Positions 987 through 18,114 are shown, counted from the stretch's first letter. The stretch: 23,577 nucleotides of DNA from a virus (IMGVR_UViG_3300047552_000690:1-23577), one strand, 5' to 3'. A program made the numbers and translations. Notes: generated from the sequence alone by a model not told the origin.

Positions 987-1283
987 GTGCCCTATGTGGT
1001 CTACCTCGGCAACAGCGACGCCGTCGAGCAACGCACCCAGCAAGACGGCACCCGCACCCGCACCCCCCTCGACGGAAAAAGGTGCACCAAAGTCGTCACC
1101 CCAGAGGGAATGAAATTCGTCGAAGCGCTCACCACGATCACCCACCAATCCCTATGGGAAGCGCACTCCAACGCGGCAGGTCCCGCATGGGTCGCGGCCA
1201 ACGACCCCACCCTAGGCCGGGCGCTCGCCGACCACTGGGGCTGCGAACTCCGCGACGTCGAGACGGAGACCACCGAATGCTGA
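987..1283 (+). CDS. Conserved actinophage-type protein of unknown function
   Basis: The start is GTG 987, set by a strong ribosome site (GAAAGGGGGG, 971-980). The 98-residue product begins with PYVVYLGNSDAV. A central part (VVTPEGMKFVEALTTITH) is followed by SLWEAHSNAAGPAWVAANDP and ends with an acidic tail. The arrangement of a predicted beta hairpin, then a helix, then PAWVA-NDP looks like small conserved proteins in other actinophage structural regions, but I cannot name a function. Its last codons overlap the next start (ATGCTGA, 1277-1283), which couples it to the tail-fibre cluster. The same frame stays open far upstream of 987, but that part is a shadow of the two preceding genes. Confidence 0.65.
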   Translation: MPYVVYLGNSDAVEQRTQQDGTRTRTPLDGKRCTKVVTPEGMKFVEALTTITHQSLWEAHSNAAGPAWVAANDPTLGRALADHWGCELRDVETETTEC

Positions 1284-1669
1284 CCAACGCCGGCAAAGAC
1301 ATGATCGCCGCCGCCATCGGAAGCACCTCAGCGCAGCCAGCCGCCGCGAACTACCTCGCATTGACCGCCAACAGCGCTGACCCGGTCGCCACCGACACCA
1401 CCCTCACCGGGGAAATCACCACCGCCGGGGGTGGGCTCGTCCGCGCACAAGCCACCTACGCGCACACCAACGGCACGTCAACGTACACGCTGACAAAAAC
1501 GTTCACCGCGAACGGCTCGGACAGCCTGCCGGTCACGATCGCGAAAATCGGCGTGCTCAACGCCACCTCAGCCGGAACCCTGGCATTCGAAACCAAACCA
1601 GCATCCCCAGCGACCCTGAACGCAAGCGGCGACGCAACCACCATCACCGAAACGGTGACCCTGTCGTGA
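1277..1669 (+). CDS. Minor tail / virion surface protein
   Basis: This 130-residue protein starts at ATG 1277, overlapping the previous gene by 7 nt. Its N-terminus (MLTNAGKDMIAAAIG) is a typical opening of actinophage minor tail proteins, in which a short amphipathic segment precedes a beta-rich domain. The rest is almost all Thr/Ser/Ala/Gly-rich alternating beta sequence (TLTGEITTAGGGLVRAQATY, TYTLTKTFTANG, TLAFETKP) ending in a TITETVTLS strand. No enzymatic motif is visible. It probably forms part of the tail tip or fibre base. It is coupled to the next gene through a GTGA overlap. Confidence 0.6.
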   Translation: MLTNAGKDMIAAAIGSTSAQPAAANYLALTANSADPVATDTTLTGEITTAGGGLVRAQATYAHTNGTSTYTLTKTFTANGSDSLPVTIAKIGVLNATSAGTLAFETKPASPATLNASGDATTITETVTLS

Positions 1670-2016
1670 CGCTCAAAAACCTGGCAATATCCACCGTCGC
1701 AACCGCACCAGACCCAGCAGCATCCGGCACCACCCTGATAGTCGCCACCGGGCACGGCACCCGGTTCCCCGACCCGGCAACCGACGGATCATTCCCCGTC
1801 ACCATCTGGCCCACCGCATCACAGCCCGATCCGAGCAACGCCGAAATCGCGTCGTGCACCGCACGCACCGGCGACACCCTGACAATCACCCGCGCGCAGG
1901 AAGGAACATCGGCGCGGACCGTCATCGTCGGAGATCAGATCATGCTAGCGATAACAGCCGGAATGTGGGACACCGCCATCAATATCGCACTGTTTAATTC
2001 TGGGGTGGGGCGCTAA
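1666..2016 (+). CDS. Tail fibre/baseplate-type structural protein
   Basis: This 116-residue protein starts at GTG 1666, overlapping the previous stop (GTGA). It is beta-rich and contains TLTITRAQEGTSARTVIVGD followed by QIMLAITAGMWDTAIN. The R-AQEGT-AR--VVGD signature recurs in many phage tail and receptor-binding proteins, where it closes a small beta domain that often precedes a fibre. It likely connects the tail tip to the fibre proteins encoded next. The next gene starts within the stop codon (TAATG, 2014-2018). Confidence 0.6.
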   Translation: MTLKNLAISTVATAPDPAASGTTLIVATGHGTRFPDPATDGSFPVTIWPTASQPDPSNAEIASCTARTGDTLTITRAQEGTSARTVIVGDQIMLAITAGMWDTAINIALFNSGVGR

Positions 2017-2429
2017 TGGGTGCGGCACCCGTCTACATGACAACGGCCTGTGTGGCCCGGGCCAGCGTATCAACCGCCAACACGAATAGGGACGGCACCG
2101 GAACTCTTGCCACCCCAACATGGGGTGGATCCGGTGGTGCTGGTGCACCCATCACAGACTGGCAACTCAAACGAATCATCCTGTCTCAAACCGGTGACCT
2201 GGCTGACAGTGTTCTCACCATATTCACAACGGATGGTTCTACAATCAATTTCCTCACAGATGTCGACCTGGCAAATCCGGCGGCAGCCAGCACGACAGCA
2301 TCTGGATTCATGTACGAAATTCCATTCGTTGAGCACCTGTTCCCTGCCAACTGGGACATCCGTTTCGGAATCACCGTGGCACCAACGAGCGGAGCATGCA
2401 TCGTGCATGCTTTCTGCGAACGGGCATAG
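2016..2429 (+). CDS. Virion/tail protein, beta-rich
   Basis: This 137-residue protein starts at ATG 2016, sharing one base with the upstream stop. It shows ANTNRDGTGTLATPTWGG followed by alternating hydrophobic strands (TDWQLKRIILSQTGD, SVLTIFTTDGSTINFL) and a final strand pair (NWDIRFGITV, ACIVHAFCERA). Short one-domain proteins with an NTNRDGTG-like opening occur in many phage adsorption modules. Exact function is unknown, and a role as a fibre-attachment or receptor-contact domain is inferred from context. From about here base composition shifts toward lower GC. Confidence 0.5.
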   Translation: MGAAPVYMTTACVARASVSTANTNRDGTGTLATPTWGGSGGAGAPITDWQLKRIILSQTGDLADSVLTIFTTDGSTINFLTDVDLANPAAASTTASGFMYEIPFVEHLFPANWDIRFGITVAPTSGACIVHAFCERA

Positions 2430-2430
2430 C

Positions 2431-3240
2431 ATGCCAATAGAGCAGATCAAAACATCCAGGTCTGGCATAGGGCCTGGTAGTGGGGTAAACACAAAAGCAT
2501 CTGGCAGATACTCCACCGCACTAGGGTATGGGACAAATGCGCGTGGAGCCTACTCCACAGTAAGTGGAAACTCCGGAGTGGCCAGCGGAGAAAATGCTAC
2601 CGCCTCCGGGAACGCATGCACGGCAAGTGGCGGCAACTCCTTCGCAGTCGGATCATATTCAACTGCCAGCGGCGCATATTCCGCGGCTATCGGATACCTC
2701 ACCGCATCGTCCGGACTGGCCTCTTTTTCCACCGGAAACGGAAGCGCCGCATCCGGATCGTACTCTGTCGCAACCGGATATCAATCAAACGCGACCAGAT
2801 ATGCCCAGGCAAGTCACTCTGGCTCGTATTTCTCGACAAAAGGCGACGCACAAAACAGCAGATTTGTACTATCCGCACAAACAACAGACGCCACACCAAC
2901 AGAACTATCAATCTCCAGCAACATCTACTACATCGACATTGGCGCAACAAGAACAATGTCCTGCGAAATAAAAATCGCAGCACACCGCACAGACGTGTCA
3001 GGCACAGCAGCAGCATGGCCAAGCATCACCTGCGGAATAACCAGAGACGCTACAGGAAACTGCAGACTCCTCGGCACACCAACGGGAGCCGGCACAACAA
3101 CATTCTGCGACGCAGGCGCAACCACCTGGAGTGTTGCAATAACAGCACCAACAAGCAACCGCCTAGCAATAACAGTGACAGGAGAAGCAGACAAAACCAT
3201 CCGCTGGGTTGCATCAGTAGACATGGCAGAAGTCGGATAG
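2431..3240 (+). CDS. YadA-like tail fibre with heptad Gly/Ser repeats
   Basis: This 269-residue protein begins at ATG 2431, one base after the previous stop. Residues 19-123 are fourteen consecutive 7-residue units of the type x-Y-S-T-A-S-G (for example RYSTALG, SYSTASG, AYSAAIG). This is the pattern of the left-handed beta-roll in YadA/Hia-type trimeric adhesin heads. A linker (RYAQASHSGSYFSTKGDAQN) leads to a beta-rich C-terminal domain of about 125 residues ending IRWVASVDMAEVG, an ending seen in phage fibre tips. It is probably a trimeric tail fibre or spike used for adsorption. The gene has clearly lower GC and many A-ending codons (aca, gca, aga, ata) unlike its neighbours, which suggests acquisition from elsewhere. 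Confidence 0.7.
   Translation: MPIEQIKTSRSGIGPGSGVNTKASGRYSTALGYGTNARGAYSTVSGNSGVASGENATASGNACTASGGNSFAVGSYSTASGAYSAAIGYLTASSGLASFSTGNGSAASGSYSVATGYQSNATRYAQASHSGSYFSTKGDAQNSRFVLSAQTTDATPTELSISSNIYYIDIGATRTMSCEIKIAAHRTDVSGTAAAWPSITCGITRDATGNCRLLGTPTGAGTTTFCDAGATTWSVAITAPTSNRLAITVTGEADKTIRWVASVDMAEVG
2485..2799 (+). repeat. Fourteen tandem 7-residue (21-nt) YadA-type repeats
   Basis: Each 21-nt unit encodes a heptad ending in Gly (the last unit ends in Arg) with small residues at positions 3-6. The units are diverged at the DNA level but the Gly register is kept without gaps for 105 residues. Units include NSGVASG, ENATASG, NACTASG and NGSAASG. This is the repeat of the YadA head beta-roll. 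Confidence 0.7.
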
Positions 3241-3247
3241 GACACCA

Positions 3248-3499
3248 ATGGCAACCTTCGAAGAACTCGCCGCAACAGTACGCGCCGGACTCGCAGAAGC
3301 TTTCGCGGGAAAAACCGTAGACGCTGACAGAGCAGAATACGTCATGTGTGGACTCGCAAAAATGGAAGCCGCCAACTACGGCTACGACATCAACAACTAC
3401 ACAATCCCAGAAGACTTCCAAGGACTCGCCGGAGACTACATCCTCCGCATCACCGAACAAGCCTGGACCACATGGGACCAACACCTCAGCCAACAGTGA
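3248..3499 (+). CDS. Small acidic protein after the fibre gene, unknown
   Basis: This 83-residue protein starts at ATG 3248, with GATAGGA (3236-3242) as a likely ribosome site overlapping the fibre stop. It is mostly helical in appearance (FEELAATVRAGLAEAFAG, DRAEYVMCGLAKMEAANYGY, LRITEQAWTTWDQHLSQQ) and acidic, with no signal peptide or membrane segment. I do not recognise the family. Its position directly behind the fibre gene would fit a dedicated fibre chaperone or a small virion protein, but that is inference from order only. It keeps some of the A-ending codon preference of the fibre gene. Confidence 0.55.
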   Translation: MATFEELAATVRAGLAEAFAGKTVDADRAEYVMCGLAKMEAANYGYDINNYTIPEDFQGLAGDYILRITEQAWTTWDQHLSQQ

Positions 3500-3528
3500 T
3501 CTAGCGCTAACCCGAGGGCGGTGGTCAG

Positions 3529-4335
3529 ATGCTATGTGGGGCGACGCTAGCAGGAGCACCCCTCGCCGGACTCATCCCAGCCGCAACCAGCAGTGGACCA
3601 GCCAGCCAGGCCGTAGCTGACACCATCACCATAAGTGATGCCGCCACCAAAACCACCACCACCACCAGTGCCACAGCGGACAGCATCACAGCAGTCGACA
3701 CCGCCGCCCAGGCCACCCAAAACCCCCGCACCACCAGTGACACCCTCACCATCGCCGACACGTGCACCATCACCGTCACCCACACCCGCGCCACCACAGA
3801 CACCCTGACCGTGGGCGACGCAACCAGCAGAAGCATCACCACAGGCCGCACCACGGCGGACAGTGTCACCATCACAGACAGCGCCCTCGCCCAATCCGGG
3901 GCCATCCTCACCACCACCGACACACTCACCCCCAGCGACACGGCCACCCGAACCCTCGCAACCACCCGTGGCATCAGCGACCAGCTAGCCACCAGCGACC
4001 AAACCAGCCGAACAACCGCCGCATGGCGGGCCATCACCGACAGCCTCACCCTCGCCGACACAGCAGGCTCCGCGACCAGCACACCCCTCGCGGCAGCCGA
4101 TACCCTCACCGTTGCGGACGCGGCCAGCACCTCCGGAACCGGGCACACGCTCACCACAGCCGACACCCTCGCACTCGCCGCCCTAGCCAGCGCCCACACC
4201 GCGCTCACACGACTCACCAGCGACACCGTGCACCTCGTAGACGTCGCAACCACCCTCGGACCCGGGGCACGCACCACCCTCCACATACGCGTCGGCACCC
4301 CAACCACGGCATGGCACATAGGATGCGCCCGGTGA
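3529..4335 (+). CDS. Thr/Asp-rich repeat protein, eleven 20-residue units (putative fibre)
   Basis: This 268-residue protein starts at ATG 3529 behind GAGGGCGGTGG. Residues 1-30 are an Ala/Gly-rich leader. Residues 31-250 are eleven nearly gapless units of 20 residues (one of 21, one of 19). The consensus is D-T/S-L-T-hydrophobic-x-D-x-A-T, a variable Thr-rich stretch, then R-x-T-T. Residues 251-268 form a short tail (LHIRVGTPTTAWHIGCAR). Regular spacing with strand-like DTLTIAD cores suggests a repetitive beta structure, perhaps a fibre shaft, and the many Thr/Ser residues could be glycosylation sites. The leader is weakly hydrophobic but has no basic n-region, so I do not call a signal peptide. 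No characterised homologue is recognised. The stop overlaps the next start (GTGA). Confidence 0.7.
   Translation: MLCGATLAGAPLAGLIPAATSSGPASQAVADTITISDAATKTTTTTSATADSITAVDTAAQATQNPRTTSDTLTIADTCTITVTHTRATTDTLTVGDATSRSITTGRTTADSVTITDSALAQSGAILTTTDTLTPSDTATRTLATTRGISDQLATSDQTSRTTAAWRAITDSLTLADTAGSATSTPLAAADTLTVADAASTSGTGHTLTTADTLALAALASAHTALTRLTSDTVHLVDVATTLGPGARTTLHIRVGTPTTAWHIGCAR
3619..4278 (+). repeat. Eleven tandem 60-nt (20-residue) repeats
   Basis: Units begin at each D-[TS]-x-T motif: DTITISD, DSITAVD, DTLTIAD, DTLTVGD, DSVTITD, DTLTPSD, DQLATSD, DSLTLAD, DTLTVAD, DTLALAA, DTVHLVD. The protein register is almost perfect while the DNA is diverged and extremely C/A-rich on the coding strand. 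This depletes stop codons in other frames and on the opposite strand. Confidence 0.75.
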
Positions 4336-10936: not shown

Positions 10937-11059
10937 CCAGCCTCGTCCCGCACGCGTTGTGGGACGAGGTATCCCCTCGAACAGCTTCAGGCCCAGCACG
11001 GGGTGCGTGGGTCATACCGTCGTGCCCGGAAACCGGGCAGAAGTGAAGGACGTGAACAA
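10937..11059 (+). promoter_or_regulatory. Structured 123-nt leader of the capsid gene (three hairpins)
   Basis: The gap holds three successive stem-loops. The first pairs CCTCGTCCC (10941-10949) with GGGACGAGG (10961-10969), extendable by three pairs to a 5-nt loop. The second pairs 10991-10999 with 11003-11012 around a GGG loop, with one bulged G. The third pairs TGCCCGG (11023-11029) with CCGGGCA (11033-11039) around AAA. GAAGGA (11045-11050) then precedes the capsid ATG. The first hairpin starts 4 nt after the decoration stop and could be a terminator or processing site. No clear -35/-10 promoter is recognisable. Confidence 0.55.
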
Positions 11060-11995
11060 ATGCCCGGAACGTATCCCCCGGCGCCCGGAACCCTCTCCGG
11101 TGACCTTCTCACCATCCACCGGCTTTTGCAGTCGCCGACGCAGATCCGCCGCCGGCTGCGGACCCTCGCTGATCTGCGATTCGTAGCCGACCAGCTCCTG
11201 ACTCAGCGATTCCGCTCCTCGGGTGGGGCGGTGCTGTACGAGGTTTCCGAGCCGGTGTACAACGAGCGTGAGATCAGCGCCGTTACCCCTGGTGCCGAAT
11301 ACCCCAGGGACACGACCGCGAACGGCACTGCCGCGACCGCCGCTGTGTCCAAGTGGGGTCAGGCGGTTCGGGTCACCGACGAGAAGATCAAGCGCTCGGT
11401 GTACATGGGTGAGGAAGTCGACCGCAGTCTGCGGAAGCTCCTCAATACCGTCATCCGGAAAGTCGACCGGCTGACCATCGCGGCGATCGCAGCCGCCGTC
11501 ACCCAGACGCAGACTGCTACGGCGGTGTGGAGTGACCTGACCAGCGCGACGATCCTTCGGGACATTGAACGCGCTGTTGGTGTTGTTGAGGATCTGGATC
11601 AGGGCTACAAGCCGGACACGATCCTGATGTCTACCGGCCGGTACGCGGAGTTCGCGTCCGACGACAAAATCAACAACCTGCGGCGTCGGGAAACCACCGA
11701 AAACCCGGTGTACACCGGCGAGATCGAAGTGATTGCCGGGTTGACCATCCTCAAGACCAGTTCGGGGAATCTCCCCACCGACGACGTGTGGATCCTCGAC
11801 AGCAAGCAGCTCGGCGGGATGGCCGACGAGACCGAGGTCGACCCCGGATACACCGTCGCTGAGATGGGTGTGCAGGTTCAGACCGAACGGATCGCGAAGG
11901 CGGACGCGTGGGACATGTGGGCTAGGCGTCTCACCGTCCCGGTCGTGCAGGAGCCGGGTGCGGCGATCCGGATCACCAGCACGGCGGGTAGCTGA
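11060..11995 (+). CDS. Major capsid protein (HK97 fold)
   Basis: The start is ATG 11060 with GAAGGA upstream, giving 311 residues; the frame is open to 11003, but that segment is leader. The sequence fits an HK97-type actinophage capsid protein: N-arm (GTLSGDLLTIHRLLQSPTQI), an E-loop-like region (FRSSGGAVLYEVSEPVYNER, VTPGAEYPRD), a long spine helix (YMGEEVDRSLRKLLNTVIRK), P-domain and A-domain strands (GYKPDTILMSTGRYAEF, GLTILKTSSGNLPTDDVWIL) and the C-terminal strand AAIRIT. No separate long delta domain precedes it, matching a phage whose scaffold is encoded with the protease. The stop overlaps the next ATG. Confidence 0.9.
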   Translation: MPGTYPPAPGTLSGDLLTIHRLLQSPTQIRRRLRTLADLRFVADQLLTQRFRSSGGAVLYEVSEPVYNEREISAVTPGAEYPRDTTANGTAATAAVSKWGQAVRVTDEKIKRSVYMGEEVDRSLRKLLNTVIRKVDRLTIAAIAAAVTQTQTATAVWSDLTSATILRDIERAVGVVEDLDQGYKPDTILMSTGRYAEFASDDKINNLRRRETTENPVYTGEIEVIAGLTILKTSSGNLPTDDVWILDSKQLGGMADETEVDPGYTVAEMGVQVQTERIAKADAWDMWARRLTVPVVQEPGAAIRITSTAGS

Positions 11996-12444
11996 TGAGA
12001 CCCAAATACCGGGTTGTCGGCCACTACGCCACGGTGAAGACCGCGACCATGAACGGGCCGACGGTGGTCGGGCTCCTCAAAGGGGCACTACTGCCGCCGG
12101 ATGTTGAGCAGGCCACGATCGATCATCTGCTCGATGTTGGGCTGATCCTGCCCCTGCCCGGTGCTGTGGAACAGATCGGGCCGGGCTGGGACGCGCCGGA
12201 CCCTGGCAGCAACAGTAAGGAGCCAGTCACTCCTGATACCACAGGCTCCGGGGCCAACACGTCAGATGACGACCTGGAGAAACGCCGCGCGGAGGCTCGG
12301 GCGAAACTCCCCACGGACGGCTCGGCGCCGAAGCGAACCCACGGCCAACCGGTATGGGTCGAATACGCCGTCCGTGAGGGCTACGACCGTGCACAGGTCG
12401 AAGCGGCCACCAGGGACGAGCTGATCGAGCTCATGACCCGATGA
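11995..12444 (+). CDS. Head-tail connector-like protein with C-terminal SAP/Rho-N-like motif
   Basis: This 149-residue protein starts at ATG 11995, sharing one base with the capsid stop. The N-terminal half is compact (KYRVVGHYATVKTATMNGPT, LLPPDVEQATIDHLLDVGLI). A Ser/Pro/Asp linker at about 67-85 follows, then a basic helix (LEKRRAEARAKLP). The last 30 residues (VWVEYAVREGYDRAQVEAAT, then RDELIELMTR) resemble the short helix-extended-helix domains seen at the ends of phage head-tail proteins. Position directly after the capsid gene supports a neck or connector role. It is separated from the next gene by a strong GC hairpin. Confidence 0.55.
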   Translation: MRPKYRVVGHYATVKTATMNGPTVVGLLKGALLPPDVEQATIDHLLDVGLILPLPGAVEQIGPGWDAPDPGSNSKEPVTPDTTGSGANTSDDDLEKRRAEARAKLPTDGSAPKRTHGQPVWVEYAVREGYDRAQVEAATRDELIELMTR

Positions 12445-12450
12445 ATACCT

Positions 12451-12478
12451 GGGGCGGCGGTCGAGGCCCCGCCGCCCC
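12451..12478 (+). terminator. 10-bp GC hairpin after the head module
   Basis: GGGGCGGCGG (12451-12460) pairs perfectly with CCGCCGCCCC (12469-12478) around an 8-nt loop, 6 nt after the connector stop. No U-run follows (AACAATCTGGGG), so efficient intrinsic termination is uncertain. It may attenuate transcription into the glycosyltransferase cassette or protect the 3' end of a capsid-connector mRNA. Confidence 0.5.
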
Positions 12479-12496
12479 AACAATCTGGGGAGACCG

Positions 12497-13897
12497 ATGC
12501 TTGACCTGGTAATCCTGGTTCCCATGCTGGGTCGCCCCCACACGGTCGCCCCACTCGTAGAATCGATACGGGAGGCTACCCCGGGTGCGCGGGCGCTGTT
12601 TCTGGTATCCCCGGGTGACGATCATGTGCATGCGGCTGTCGATGAGGTGGATTGCGAGCGGCTGACGGTGCCGTTCGAGCCTGTCGGCGACTACGCCCGG
12701 AAAATCAACACCGGCTACCGGGCGACGACCGAACCACTCATCTTCACCGGTGCGTGCGACATTCTCTTTCACCGCGGGTGGTTCGAAGCTGCCATGGCCA
12801 AGCTTCGCTTCGGGGTCGGGGTGGTCGGAACCAACGACCTTGGTAATCCCCGCGTCATGGCCGGCCAGCACGCCACACACTTCCTCGTCACCAGGGCGTA
12901 CGCCAACCAGCACGGCACCATCGACCAGCCGGGGGCAATCTTCCACGAGGGATACCCCCACGAGTACTGCAATCCTCCAGAAGCGCCAGTGTGGATGGGC
13001 GACTTGACATTCCGTTCGCTGGGTGATGTGCGAGTCGGAGATCAGGTAATGGGATGGGAGCGGTTCACCCCAGACGGCAGCTCGTTCAGTCTCAACCGAC
13101 TCTGTACCGCCGAGGTGCTAGCAATATCGACGCGCCAGTCAGAGATAGTCAGGGTGTCCATGGAGTCCGGGCGCACATTCCGGTGCACCCCAGACCACAG
13201 GTGGTACAACGCTGTCTGGACGCCATCAGCCAACAAGCGTTGGGTCGACTATCCGCAATGGGTTACACCAAAGGTCGGGCGCACCTTGATGCACGTGGCT
13301 GATATGCCACCCCAGGTCCCGCCGGATCTTGAACGTATGGCCGGATGGCTCGGAGGAATCTACGACGGAGAGGGCTCATGGATCGAGATCGCACAGTGCC
13401 CTGTCGCCAACCCTGAGGTGCATGCGGCAATCTGTGCCGCGTTCGGCAAGCTCGACATAACGTACACAATCGGAAATAGAAAGAACTCCCACCATTTCAC
13501 CCTGACGGGCGGAAGGCAGGGGTATCTCAACTTTCTTCTTCGCTGTCAGCCGGTCAAACGACATTCGATTGCCAACAAGATAATTGGTGGCCGTAGGTTC
13601 GGCTTACGCGACAAAATTGTTTCAGTAGAGCCTGACGGTGCTGGCGACGTTGTATCAATGACGACGACAACCGGAAACTATGTTGCATGGGGCTACGCCT
13701 CAAAGAACTGCGACAATGAGCTCATCGGAACCGCGAAACACCGCGGCGCGTGGGCGATGGCGCTCGACTCCCACGTCGAACACCTCCACCCACACTGGGG
13801 GAAAGCCCCCACGGATGCGATCTACGACCAGCAGTCGCAGCGCATGACCACCGGCCGTGTGATCTTCAACCAGAGGAGACGGCTGTGGCGGGGGTGA
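12497..13897 (+). CDS. Intein-containing glycosyltransferase-like protein
   Basis: This 466-residue precursor starts at ATG 12497, 4 nt after GGGGAG (12487-12492). Extein parts are residues 1-157 and 405-466, which would splice to a 219-residue enzyme. The N-extein is GT-A-like: LDLVILVPMLGRPHTVAPLV, then GDYARKINTGYR, then IFTGACDILFHRGWFEAA, with D88 as the candidate metal/nucleotide acid. The C-extein continues CDNELIGTAKHRGAWA, then VEHLHPHWGKAP and a tail with DAIYDQQ, typical of phage glycosyltransferase-like proteins. The intein interrupts the conserved HEY-[C]DNE motif, so the enzyme should be inactive until spliced. It overlaps the next gene by 13 nt. Sugar donor and target are unknown. 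Confidence 0.85.
   Translation: MLDLVILVPMLGRPHTVAPLVESIREATPGARALFLVSPGDDHVHAAVDEVDCERLTVPFEPVGDYARKINTGYRATTEPLIFTGACDILFHRGWFEAAMAKLRFGVGVVGTNDLGNPRVMAGQHATHFLVTRAYANQHGTIDQPGAIFHEGYPHEYCNPPEAPVWMGDLTFRSLGDVRVGDQVMGWERFTPDGSSFSLNRLCTAEVLAISTRQSEIVRVSMESGRTFRCTPDHRWYNAVWTPSANKRWVDYPQWVTPKVGRTLMHVADMPPQVPPDLERMAGWLGGIYDGEGSWIEIAQCPVANPEVHAAICAAFGKLDITYTIGNRKNSHHFTLTGGRQGYLNFLLRCQPVKRHSIANKIIGGRRFGLRDKIVSVEPDGAGDVVSMTTTTGNYVAWGYASKNCDNELIGTAKHRGAWAMALDSHVEHLHPHWGKAPTDAIYDQQSQRMTTGRVIFNQRRRLWRG
12968..13708 (+). mobile_element. Intein, 247 aa, with single LAGLIDADG-type motif
   Basis: The insertion is in frame and carries Hint-domain blocks. Block A is Cys1 plus VWMGDLTFRSLGDVRVGDQV. Block B is GRTFRCTPDH with T74 and H77. 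Block F is DVVSMTTTTGNYVAWG. Block G is YASKN, ending at Asn247 with Cys as the +1 residue. One homing-endonuclease-like motif, LGGIYDGEGS (128-137), sits in an approximately 100-residue insert; no second motif is visible. The penultimate residue is Lys rather than the usual His. GC is visibly lower than in the flanking exteins, consistent with recent mobility. Confidence 0.88.
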
Positions 13898-14529
13898 CCA
13901 TTGCTGTCGCGACGTTTGGCGCCGACCACTGGCGGCAGGTGGCCGAACAGCACGCTCTCCCCTCGGCGTACGCCACGGGCGCCCCGGTCGTGTACGCACA
14001 CGGCGCCAGCATTCATGGCGCCCGGAACGCGTGCCTTGATCAGGTTAAAACCGAGCATGTGATCTACCTCGACGCGGACGACGAGCTCGAATCCGGCTAC
14101 CTAGACGCCATGGCAACAGTCGACGCCGACATTCGGGTGCCAGTCGTCCGCTACGTCACCAACCCCAACAGACTGCCCGCACCATCCATGCCGAAGGTCG
14201 TCGGCCACCACCACAGCTGTTCGGCAGAGTGCCTGCCCTGCGGGAACTGGATAGTCATCGGCGCCATGGCACGCACCAAACTCCTCCGCGACGTAGGCGG
14301 ATGGCGGGACTTCGGGTGGGAAGACTGGGACCTGTGGCTACGCTGCCACCTTGCCGGGGCCACCATCAAACCAGCCTCCGGCGCTGTCTACCGCGCCAAC
14401 GTCCACCCCAACTCCCGTGGCCGGTATACCGCTGAGGAGTCGCGACGCCATCACCTCGCCGTCGCTGAAGCTAACGGATTCAACATCGACGGTATCCCGC
14501 TCGCGGCCGGAAGGAAGATTCGTGTCTGA
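13885..14529 (+). CDS. GT2-family glycosyltransferase
   Basis: This 214-residue protein starts at GTG 13885, placed by GAGGAG (13873-13878), within the last codons of the upstream gene. It is a short GT-A glycosyltransferase: VTIAVATFGADHW at the N-terminus, GARNACLDQVKTEHVIYL, then the metal-binding DAD at residues 63-65 followed by DELESGYLD, and the base/acceptor motif GWEDWDLWLR (145-154). It lacks membrane helices, so it is likely cytosolic and acts on a protein or a soluble acceptor. The last 8 nt overlap the dehydratase gene. Confidence 0.85.
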   Translation: MAGVTIAVATFGADHWRQVAEQHALPSAYATGAPVVYAHGASIHGARNACLDQVKTEHVIYLDADDELESGYLDAMATVDADIRVPVVRYVTNPNRLPAPSMPKVVGHHHSCSAECLPCGNWIVIGAMARTKLLRDVGGWRDFGWEDWDLWLRCHLAGATIKPASGAVYRANVHPNSRGRYTAEESRRHHLAVAEANGFNIDGIPLAAGRKIRV

Positions 14530-15517
14530 CCTGGGGCGACTGTTGGGACGTGAGCCAATCAGCGTTGCTGTTGACGGCTCATACCTCGCTGGGCGGCGGG
14601 TGCTAGTCACCGGTGCTGGTGGTTCGATTGGCTCCGAGTTGTGTCGGCAGGTGTACCGGCATGGCCCAGAATTCCTTGTGATGCTTGGGCATGGCGAATC
14701 CACCCTGCTAGCCACCAATGCCACCGTCAACAACATGGGTACGCTGGCGCTCGCCGACCTACGCGACCGGCGGCGACTCTTCGACGTGTTCGCCGAGCAT
14801 AAACCGGATATCGTGTTTCACGCCGCAGCCCTCAAACATCAGCCCATCTTGGAACGTGAGCCGGCTGAGGCCGTCAAAACGAACGTGTGGGGCACCGCGA
14901 ACGTGCTGGCGGCTGCGGAGCAGGTCGGGGTGAAAACCCTCGTCAACGTCTCAACCGACAAGGCTTGCGATCCGACGTGCGTGCTCGGAGCGTCGAAGCG
15001 CATCGCTGAGCGCATGACTGCTTGGTACACGCCGCTGCGGTATGTGAGCGTCAGGTTCGGGAACGTCATCGGATCCCGCGGTTCGGTGCTGGGGGTGTTC
15101 GCGCGGCAGCTGGCCGATGGGGGCACGCTCACCATCACCAGCCCTGACGTCGACCGATACTTCATGACCCCTGATGAGGCTGCGCAGCTGGTTATTCACG
15201 CTGGCGCGGTTGGTGACGCTGGTGAGGCCCTGGTGTTGGATATGGGATCCCCGGTGCGGATCGTTGACCTCGCCAAGCGCATGGCCCGGTTCATGGGCGT
15301 TGATGCGCCGGTTGTGTTCACCGGGCTGCGTCCGGGGGAGAAGCTTCACGAGCAGCTTATCGGGGTAGATGAGTGCCCGACGCGCCCACATCACCCACTG
15401 GTCGATCATGTTGTGGTTCCGCCGCTAGATCCGACCGCCGCCGCGAACATCAACATTAGTGATCCGGGGCGGCTCCGGGAAGCGCTTGGCATCCTCGCAA
15501 CCGGAGGTGCGGCGTGA
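14522..15517 (+). CDS. Soluble NAD-dependent nucleotide-sugar dehydratase/epimerase (CapD/PseB family)
   Basis: This 331-residue protein starts at GTG 14522 behind GGAAGGAAG (14509-14517). It is an extended short-chain dehydrogenase of the polysaccharide-biosynthesis (CapD/FlaA1/PseB) type: NAD-binding GAGGSIG (31-37), FHAAALKHQPILE (99-111), catalytic STDKA (144-148), GASKR (156-160), RFGNVIGSRGSVLGVF and GLRPGEKLHEQL. The usual Tyr of the active site is Leu155; in the WbpM/CapD branch this position is Met, so activity is still plausible. It has no N-terminal membrane helices, unlike host CapD/WbpM proteins. Expected chemistry is 4,6-dehydration or 4-epimerisation of a UDP-HexNAc; the exact product is not predictable. 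The stop overlaps the next start. Confidence 0.85.
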   Translation: MSDLGRLLGREPISVAVDGSYLAGRRVLVTGAGGSIGSELCRQVYRHGPEFLVMLGHGESTLLATNATVNNMGTLALADLRDRRRLFDVFAEHKPDIVFHAAALKHQPILEREPAEAVKTNVWGTANVLAAAEQVGVKTLVNVSTDKACDPTCVLGASKRIAERMTAWYTPLRYVSVRFGNVIGSRGSVLGVFARQLADGGTLTITSPDVDRYFMTPDEAAQLVIHAGAVGDAGEALVLDMGSPVRIVDLAKRMARFMGVDAPVVFTGLRPGEKLHEQLIGVDECPTRPHHPLVDHVVVPPLDPTAAANINISDPGRLREALGILATGGAA

Positions 15518-16221
15518 GCGTGGCACTGCTGATAATCACCGACGGCCGTGATGACTATCTGCAACAGTGCGTGGCCTCCGCAGACTCCCAGCTTGCTGGT
15601 GACATCGTCGAGCGGTGGATGTTCGACGACACCGGAGACCCTACCTATCGGGGCGGTCTCGCCCGCCGGTATCCGCAGTTCCGGCACATTGATGGTGGGT
15701 TTAGGCAGGGCTGTGCGGGTGCGATCCAGGCGGCGTGGCGGATCCTGCGGGAACGCAGCAATGCCCGGTTTGTGTTTCATCTGGAGCAGGACTTCGTGTT
15801 CACCCACCCCACCAACGTTGATCAGCTGATGGGCTTCCTTGACGACCATCCCGAATACGCGCAGGTAGCGCTACGCCGCCAGCCCTGCAACCCCCTGGAG
15901 GAGGCGGCCGGCGGGGTGGTCGAGCAGCATCCAGACTGGTACACCGACCATTGCGACACCAAGGGCCGGGCCTGGTTGGAACACTCCGCCTACTGGACCT
16001 GCAACCCGTGCCTGTACCGCACCGATCTGCTAACCATGGGCTGGCCTGGACACATTGACGGACGCTACAGCGAAGACACGTTCACCGAGACGCTCCGCCG
16101 CGACGGCACCCCGCAAATCAGCGGCGAGCGGGTGCGGTTCGCCTACTGGGGTGCGCGTGACTCCGGCGTGTGGGTGCGGCACATCGGACACCGCCGCCAC
16201 CAGCAAAGCAAGGACTACTGA
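15514..16221 (+). CDS. Glycosyltransferase-like protein
   Basis: This 235-residue protein starts at GTG 15514 (GTGA overlap) behind GGAGG (15503-15507). It has a GT-A-like layout: MSVALLIITDGRDDYLQQCV, a donor-side FHLEQDFVF with an E-x-D motif at residues 91-93, then NPCLYRTDLLTMGWP, and the acidic SEDTFTETLRRDGT that would be the catalytic/acceptor motif. GFRQGCAGAIQAAWRIL matches the helix that usually leads to the DxD motif. No membrane segment is present. Donor and acceptor are unknown. The next start overlaps the stop by one base. Confidence 0.75.
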   Translation: MSVALLIITDGRDDYLQQCVASADSQLAGDIVERWMFDDTGDPTYRGGLARRYPQFRHIDGGFRQGCAGAIQAAWRILRERSNARFVFHLEQDFVFTHPTNVDQLMGFLDDHPEYAQVALRRQPCNPLEEAAGGVVEQHPDWYTDHCDTKGRAWLEHSAYWTCNPCLYRTDLLTMGWPGHIDGRYSEDTFTETLRRDGTPQISGERVRFAYWGARDSGVWVRHIGHRRHQQSKDY

Positions 16222-17006
16222 TGACCACCTTTGGGATCTCGATGGTCCGCGACGAAGCCGACGTGGTCGAAGGAACAATCCGTCACATGGCCGCCGAGGT
16301 GGACCACCTGATCGTCGCCGACAATCGGTCAACTGACGGCACCCGCAGCATCCTTGACCAGCTGGCACACGAGCTACCACTGACCGTCGTGGACGATCCC
16401 GACCCCGCCCACTACCAGGGCAGGAAAATGTCGGCCCTGGCGGAACGCGCTGGGGAGGCCGGTGCTGACTGGGTTGTGCCGTTCGACGCCGACGAACTGT
16501 GGTACTCGCCCCTTGGGCGGATCGCCGATGTGCTGGCGCTCGCCGTCGGAAACATCGCACCCGCAGACCTGTTCAACCACTGGTCGACCGCCGTAGACCC
16601 GCCCGGGGCGGACCCGTTCCGAACAATGGCGTGGCGTGACCAAAACCCGTCCCGGCTGCCGAAGGTCGCATTCCGGTGGCGGCGGGGAGCCACCCTCCAC
16701 GAGGGAAACCACGGCGTAGACCTCCCAGGGCATCCTCACCCCGCTGTGGTCCTGCTAGAGATCCGCCACTTCCCGTACCGGACGCCTGAGCAGTTCGCTC
16801 GCAAGGCGCAGCAGGGGGCGGCGGCGCTCGCCGCTACGACTCTCCCAGCTGGGGTGGGCGCACATTGGCGGCTGTACGCAGAGGCCGCCGACCGGCATGG
16901 GGTTGAAGCACTGCACGATCATTTCCGTCGCCACTTTTGGCACTTCGCCCCACTCGATTCGGGGCTGATCCACGATCCGGCACCCTACCTCCGGTGGAAC
17001 GGTTGA
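16221..17006 (+). CDS. GT2-family glycosyltransferase
   Basis: This 261-residue protein starts at ATG 16221, sharing one base with the preceding stop. Clear GT2 features are present: FGISMVRDEADVVEGTIRHM, the nucleotide-binding ADNRSTDGTRSILD (33-46), and the metal-binding DAD (89-91) in PFDADELWYSP. The C-terminal part contains GATLHEGNHGVD and IRHFPYRTPEQFARKAQQGA, as in LgtF/Glyco_tranf_2_4-type enzymes that act on peptides or sugars. It is complete for this family and probably active. It is coupled to the next gene through a TTGA overlap. Confidence 0.88.
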   Translation: MTTFGISMVRDEADVVEGTIRHMAAEVDHLIVADNRSTDGTRSILDQLAHELPLTVVDDPDPAHYQGRKMSALAERAGEAGADWVVPFDADELWYSPLGRIADVLALAVGNIAPADLFNHWSTAVDPPGADPFRTMAWRDQNPSRLPKVAFRWRRGATLHEGNHGVDLPGHPHPAVVLLEIRHFPYRTPEQFARKAQQGAAALAATTLPAGVGAHWRLYAEAADRHGVEALHDHFRRHFWHFAPLDSGLIHDPAPYLRWNG

Positions 17007-17677
17007 GCGTCGCGGTCATCATCCCGTGGCGGGGCGGATGCTCCCATCGGGAGCGGGCTCTGGAATGGGTGTGGGGCAGATGGGCCACCAACCATCCCGA
17101 ATGGCCAGTGTTGCTCGGCGCGGAACCAGATGGGCCGTGGTGCAAAGCTGATGCGGTAGTTGACGCACTGGCCCGCACGGATGCCGACACGATTGTGATC
17201 GCTGATGGGGATGTGTGGTGCGACTGGGTGGCTGACGCTGTTGCCGCCGTTGAGGCCGGCGCTAGGTGGGCGGTTCCGCACGGCAACGTGTGTCGGCTGG
17301 CTGAGGATGCCACTGCGGCGGTGTTGGGCGGTGATGCGCCGGGGGTTGTGTTGCCGGTAGAGCAGGCACCCTACCTTGGGGTTCCCGGCGGCGGGATTGT
17401 CGTCATACCAGCCGAAACATTCTGGTCTATCCCCCTGGATCCCCGCTTTCTGGGCTGGGGTGGTGAGGACGAGGCGTGGGGGCTGGCCCTGGAAAAGCTC
17501 GTCGGCTCACCATGGCGGGGCGCCATGCCGCTGTACCACCTGTGGCATCCGCCGCAGCCGCGCCGAAACCGCCATGTTGGATCACCGCAGAATCAGGCCC
17601 TGCTGGTCAGGTATCAAACCGTGCGCACCCCAGACGGGATGCGGTCCCTGGTTGACGAGGCGAGGAGAATGCTTTGA
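17003..17677 (+). CDS. Galactosyltransferase-like GT-A protein
   Basis: This 224-residue protein is placed at TTG 17003, overlapping the stop before it; an in-frame GTG at 16994 is an alternative. It begins SVAVIIPWRGGCSHRERALE, has a DGD metal-binding motif (68-70) in VIADGDVWCDWV, and carries GWGGEDEAWGLAL (151-163). The latter matches the GWGxEDxE signature of the Glyco_transf_7C galactosyl/GalNAc-transferase domain. PLYHLWHPPQPRRN (176-189) supplies the His-containing C-terminal motif of the same group. It is the last gene of the glycosyltransferase cassette, and its stop overlaps the adaptor start (TTGA). Confidence 0.82.
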   Translation: MSVAVIIPWRGGCSHRERALEWVWGRWATNHPEWPVLLGAEPDGPWCKADAVVDALARTDADTIVIADGDVWCDWVADAVAAVEAGARWAVPHGNVCRLAEDATAAVLGGDAPGVVLPVEQAPYLGVPGGGIVVIPAETFWSIPLDPRFLGWGGEDEAWGLALEKLVGSPWRGAMPLYHLWHPPQPRRNRHVGSPQNQALLVRYQTVRTPDGMRSLVDEARRML

Positions 17678-18114
17678 CCGCACCAACCTGGGCGCCGGAT
17701 CTCGCCAGGGTGGCCACCTACGTGCCAGCCCGTACCTTGTCGACCGTGGACGGCACTCACCAGCGAACCTTCACGGCCGAGACGAATCCCAACGCTGACC
17801 ATGTCACCTCGCTGGTAGACGACGCATGCGCGTGGGTGCTCGTCGCTACCGGGCCGATCAGCGCCAGTCTGGAAACGATGGCCGCCGCGACCGCAGCCGT
17901 GTACGCCGCAGCGGGGGTCGAACGCGGTTTCCCCGACCGGGACGCCGATGTTGACACCGCCCAGCGGTTGTACGAGCAGGCGTTGGCGATGCGCTCCGAT
18001 TTGGATGTGGCGAACCGGGCGCTCAGTGGCGAGGACACCACTGATTCGGCTGGGGCTGTGCAGGTGCTGTACGGGTTCCCGACCCCACCGACTTGGGGCG
18101 ACGATCTTCTCTGA
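17674..18114 (+). CDS. Head-tail adaptor protein
   Basis: This 146-residue protein starts at TTG 17674, overlapping the previous stop. It opens TAPTWAPDLARVATYVPART, has a helical core (VDDACAWVLVATGPISASLE, AAATAAVYAAAGVERGFPD) and ends VLYGFPTPPTWGDDLL. Actinophage head-to-tail adaptor proteins share this opening and a helical bundle with this layout. It would sit between portal and tail in the neck. It is followed after 11 nt by the tail terminator gene. Normally such a gene follows the capsid/connector genes directly; here the sugar cassette lies between them. Confidence 0.75.
   Translation: MTAPTWAPDLARVATYVPARTLSTVDGTHQRTFTAETNPNADHVTSLVDDACAWVLVATGPISASLETMAAATAAVYAAAGVERGFPDRDADVDTAQRLYEQALAMRSDLDVANRALSGEDTTDSAGAVQVLYGFPTPPTWGDDLL

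Follow-up and report, generated by a model that had tools for sequence, protein, structure and literature searches.

A fragment of 23,577 bases from an uncultivated virus (IMGVR_UViG_3300047552_000690:1-23577; the whole stretch is here termed the window) carries at 12497-17677 six same-strand cistrons for five glycosyltransferases, GT1 to GT5, and a nucleotide-sugar dehydratase. Taking the explanation as a whole, it is quite probable that this cassette is a virion-glycosylation module acting on the C-terminal serine of capsid and tail proteins. Glycosylation of the virion had been suggested in the initial annotation and is well supported by homology to glycosyltransferases of phage Che8, by discrete insertion of the cassette beside head genes in many phages and by a link to C-terminal serine. 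The acceptors suggested at that time have not fared as well. Thr/Ser-rich fibres (1277-4335) and the decoration protein are probably the wrong candidates, as nothing ties the fibres to the cassette and the decoration protein ends in MQV; the sequences point instead to the terminal serine of the major capsid protein and that of the tail tube as the likely acceptors.

From 4.6 kb onward the + strand has, in order, genes for small terminase, large terminase, portal, protease, decoration (cement) protein, major capsid protein and connector, followed by the cassette and then adaptor, neck proteins, tail terminator, major tail protein and tape measure. Successive cistrons of the cassette overlap by 1 to 8 bases, and GT5 in turn overlaps the start of the adaptor; the cassette is therefore translated together with the head genes rather than being loosely set among them. 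The features relevant to the argument are the following.

11003..11995, + strand: major capsid protein (phrog_1650, 3.3e-78), C-terminus ...ITSTAGS, predicted glycan acceptor
11995..12444, + strand: head-tail connector protein (phrog_2322), flanks the insertion on the left
12450..12479, + strand: GC-rich 11-bp hairpin in the gap between connector and GT1 (z = -2.4)
12497..13897, + strand: GT1, GT-A glycosyltransferase precursor, exteins 12497-12967 and 13709-13894, 219 aa once spliced
12968..13708, + strand: intein of 247 aa (NF038136, 4.8e-11), between Y157 and C405 of the precursor
13894..14529, + strand: GT2 glycosyltransferase, GTGA overlap with GT1, related to the N-terminal domain of Che8 gp108
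14522..15517, + strand: nucleotide-sugar 4,6-dehydratase of the PglF/CapD/PseB superfamily (PF02719, E=4.5e-90)
15514..16221, + strand: GT3 glycosyltransferase (phrog_3047, 2e-12), distantly related to Che8 gp110
16221..17006, + strand: GT4 glycosyltransferase (PF13704, 1.2e-14), among the best conserved members
17003..17677, + strand: GT5 glycosyltransferase (phrog_1721, 1.7e-13), same family as Che8 gp109
17674..18114, + strand: head-tail adaptor, flanks the insertion on the right, overlaps GT5 by TTGA, 33% identity to the adaptor of contig L006
18848..19480, + strand: major tail (tube) protein (phrog_117), C-terminus ...AALAAS, the other predicted acceptor

The six overlapping cistrons and their family matches bear out the coupled array of five transferases and a dehydratase between head genes and adaptor as it was first described. 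Two of its details need amending: the dehydratase starts at about 14522 and not at 14351, and GT1 has a functional length of 219 aa and not 466, an intein within it having been missed. The hairpin ahead of GT1 is strong, without a T-run, and may reduce cassette expression, at the level of transcription or of translation, compared with that of the capsid gene. Further upstream, before the terminase genes, the frame at 2434-3237 has YadA-head repeats (PF05658, 7.5e-11), a trimeric-adhesin-like fibre segment in an actinophage.

Three of the transferases have homologues in Che8 (cluster F1): GT5 matches gp109 at 1.7e-35, GT2 matches gp108 at 1.7e-11 and GT3 matches gp110 at 1e-6, and none of gp108-gp110 is homologous to GT1 or GT4. 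The Che8 capsid is reported to bear a covalent glycan (PMC11256854, citing Freeman et al. 2023), the glycosyltransferases of cluster O phages are reported to modify capsid and tail tube (PMC11600133, citing the same work), and the glycans are reported to be at the C-termini of these two proteins (PMC12619734, again citing it). Because of these reports, the C-termini encoded by cassette loci were inspected. Che8 differs from the window in having three transferases, at the right genome end, and no intein, whereas here there are five with a dehydratase in the head operon. Closer in placement are the arrays of cluster J (Baka, gap between capsid and head-tail connector) and cluster O (Catdawg, gap between portal and protease), which are also in the head operon and include a phrog_1721 member; they differ in having a methyltransferase and a kinase instead of a dehydratase, and in lacking a GT1 homologue. 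The Baka array (contig L236, 7877-16203) comprises five glycosyltransferases, a kinase and a methyltransferase. The cassette falls in the class of these already known actinophage arrays for virion glycosylation, of which it is a larger version: it has two more transferase families and, in the window's phage alone, an intein.

The window's capsid ends in ...STAGS and its tail tube in ...LAAS, so that each carries a possible O-acceptor. Across cassette loci a terminal serine is present on 35 of 38 major capsid proteins, from five unrelated families, and on 18 of 21 tail tubes (53/59 combined), with three further tail tubes ending in threonine. Other head genes of the same loci end in serine in 6 of 184 cases (among them TerL 0/42, portal 0/44, scaffold 1/26), and the 29 positions ahead of the last one contain 5% serine. 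Related phages lacking the cassette were compared, as had been advocated: in the window's capsid family and a second family the capsid ends in serine in 38/39 with a glycosyltransferase versus 4/38 without a detected one (p = 3e-16), the latter class being limited to contigs that cover 6 kb or more on each side. As the sequences are related, phylogenetically independent pairs were counted as well; five agree, none disagrees and one is a tie (p = 0.03). The c12 family was left out of the cassette-free comparison since the alignment of its major capsid protein is too divergent to scan.

For glycosyltransferases elsewhere in cassette-free contigs, scans with PF00535 and phrog_1721 were too insensitive, and their place was taken by local profile searches, which covered 11 contigs, 10 of them whole and L119 as the first 60 of its 71 kb. 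Three contigs with a serine-ending capsid and no cassette (L107, L093 and L185) carry a Che8 gp110-like transferase on the same contig, and the same search found no gp110-like transferase in five non-serine contigs. Does the gp110 family start the glycan? The lone enzyme in these three is a hint that it may. Among named phages that bear glycosyltransferases, capsid and tail respectively end in TGS and DGS in Che8, VGS and GDS in Catdawg, QGS and GGS in MosMoris, TAS and AGS in Island3, TGS and TGS in GMA2, and DPS and EGS in Rabbitrun, while D29, TM4, Bxb1 and Powerball have terminal serine on neither protein and no array in the part of each genome that was looked at. Myrna, whose capsid ends in RKA, was left out of the counts, its glycosylation and glycosyltransferase status not being established. 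Two related observations stand beside these. Seven contigs (L156, L157, L161, L162, L164, L165 and L226) with a different transferase array, in which a divergent GT1-like member alone was recognised, also have serine-ending capsids. Further, the tail terminator (L038, L021, L034, L047, L015) ends in serine in 12 of 16 cassette loci versus 0/6 without a glycosyltransferase, and it is a possible third substrate.

Several facts weigh against this reading. The Baka capsid ends in PSF, its final residue being Phe, though its tail ends in GLS; the capsids of L027, L045 and L044, and L195, are without terminal serine; Tweety keeps TGS and DGS with a mere remnant of the gp109 homologue; and some contigs without a glycosyltransferase have serine-ending capsids (L154, L188, L213, L223). 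The correlation is not proof that serine is the attachment residue. Moreover, GT1, the core enzyme of the cassette, is without a homologue in Che8 and so is not one of the enzymes tested there.

The insertion is discrete. In contig L006, with a capsid 64% identical to the window's, the connector is followed by the adaptor about 100 bp later, and in Gordonia phage Powerball (capsid 47% identical) gp07, the connector, is followed directly by the head-to-tail adaptor. The relative L005/L007, at 74% identity, shares this insertion as far as its contig end, with an intein-free GT1. Profile searching with GT1 yielded 65 contigs, and in about 40 of these uncultivated phages the order is GT1-GT2-(dehydratase)-GT3-GT4-GT5. 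The cassette adjoins capsid genes of five unrelated PHROG families (1650, 283, 10, 1328 and 777). Spliced GT1 has no match in 50,697 phage records, relatives of GT2 and GT4 that span the greater part of the query are confined to one deposited record, that of an uncultured mangrove phage, and direct DNA comparison with isolates gave a single 64-bp match only. A prophage of Parafrankia soli NRRL B-16219 (L242), with a full GT1-GT5 cassette and a serine-ending capsid, is a possible cultivable test system.

Taken singly, GT1 and GT2 match PF00535 weakly (0.007 and 6e-4), and each is conserved in dozens of phages; the GT1 family model has a confident GT-A fold (predicted local distance difference test score, pLDDT, 96), the nearest structures being GT2-type enzymes such as SpsA and PcManGT. 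The nearest solved structure to the dehydratase is the Campylobacter jejuni UDP-GlcNAc 4,6-dehydratase WlaL/PglF (1.2e-63), with which it shares an STDK segment and from which it differs in being soluble, phage-borne and without a partner aminotransferase. Its assignment is to the superfamily PF02719; it falls below the NCBIfam equivalog cut-offs for PseB (169.5 of 407.75 bits) and FnlA (123.7 of 730). It is an optional member of the cassette, found in 4 loci; the three other loci with a dehydratase (L010, L036 and L040) encode a further transferase resembling GT1 as well as an SDR epimerase (cluster c52), neither of which is present in the window.

GT1 has a further peculiarity. Its 466-codon frame contains a foreign in-frame block of 247 residues (158-404), which matches the NCBIfam Rv2578c-type intein model and, weakly, an intein N-terminal region. 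The class 1 hallmarks are Cys1 (C158), a block B TxxH (TPDH), a C-terminal Asn (N404, in the end ASKN) and the +1 residue, which is Cys (C405) where Cys, Ser or Thr is expected; of the endonuclease part there is one clear LAGLIDADG-like motif, GGIYDGEG, a second not having been identified. Insertion is at HEY/CDNE, within the motif HE[YFW]-[CV]-D-[DN]-E, where all 66 GT1 sequences keep the D and the E, and the 65 GT1 relatives in viral contigs all lack the intein, their sequence being continuous across the exact ligation site. The GC content of the block is 0.565 versus 0.641 in the exteins. Its closest relatives, at 38-39% identity across the whole block, are inteins of Bixzunavirus ErnieJ gp255 and of the portal protein of Myrnavirus ScoobyDoobyDoo, which, like the Rv2578c type, share with it the ends CN..APVWM ... 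AS[KS]N/C, the DGEG endonuclease motif and the NF038136 match, but here the host protein is a glycosyltransferase. A 2016 survey of mycobacteriophages had found inteins solely in nucleic-acid-binding proteins (PMC5050341). The AlphaFold model of the GT1 precursor was uninformative (pLDDT 44), its intein part being unreliable; on its sequence signatures the precursor would splice to the 219-aa enzyme.

How might the module work? We infer the attachment, the length and composition of the glycan, the order of the transferases and the splicing as follows. Inserted between connector and adaptor genes, the module would be made with the late head proteins, and GT1 to GT5, as soluble GT-A-fold transferases, would add sugars in turn, so that the serine at the C-terminus of the major capsid and major tail proteins ([G/A/T]-S-COOH) would come to bear a short O-linked glycan. 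The acceptor would be a portable exposed tail on assembled or assembling subunits, and not fibres or decoration protein. One of the steps may draw on an unusual 4-keto-6-deoxy sugar nucleotide, supplied by the dehydratase, and GT1, the signature member, would be a precursor active only after the intein excises itself.

Might the intein instead have inactivated GT1, with the cassette decaying in this phage and the virion perhaps under-glycosylated? We regard this as unlikely. The penultimate residue is unusual, Lys in place of the class 1 His, and the intein is present once among 66 GT1 genes. However, the mismatch is not decisive because this residue varies in phage inteins, and phage class 1 inteins without the His splice well (PMC5050341); three related inteins end in the same [KS]-N, the reading frame and the hallmark residues listed above are all intact, and every downstream cistron is open.

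Targets outside the virion proteins are disfavoured. Alteration of a host cell-wall or surface polysaccharide, for superinfection exclusion or lysogenic conversion, would suit GT2 enzymes and CapD/PglF-like dehydratases, which are typical of surface polysaccharide loci, and some relatives are prophages, as in Parafrankia soli; yet the genes are embedded in a late head operon, overlapping the adaptor start, the cassette proteins have no predicted transmembrane segment (maximum 19-residue hydropathy 1.3), no flippase or GtrA/GtrB partner accompanies them, and the C-terminal serine signal would go unexplained, all of which makes this distinctly improbable. Less probable again is glycosylation of hypermodified phage DNA bases against host restriction. 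DNA-glycosylating phage transferases do exist, and fold searches match, at fold level only, the TET-associated glycosyltransferase of phage phiRSL1, but no gene for DNA-base hypermodification was recognised within the 23.6 kb of the window, the cassette goes with the C-termini of capsid and tail and not with DNA enzymes, and the nearest characterised relatives, those of Che8, are reported to act on virion proteins (PMC11256854).

Glycosylation of phage virions has come to light recently, in a small number of cultivated mycobacteriophages, and a larger, five-transferase syntenic module in dozens of uncultivated actinobacterial phages, whose capsids are of at least five unrelated types, points to the trait being wider than the cultivated record suggests. 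An intein within a sugar transferase broadens the known range of phage intein hosts. The most valuable product of the analysis is the C-terminal serine rule. We lean, with some reserve, towards [G/A/T]-S-COOH being a portable glycosylation tag, acquired convergently by unrelated capsid and tail proteins whenever a transferase array is present, such that the last capsid residue would predict virion glycosylation across actinobacterial phages, with the window's signature enzyme gated in addition by intein splicing. With such a rule glycosylation would be predictable from sequence and testable by one substitution, and an acceptor tag at the C-terminus, functional on several folds, would also be of use as a minimal tag for glycosylation.

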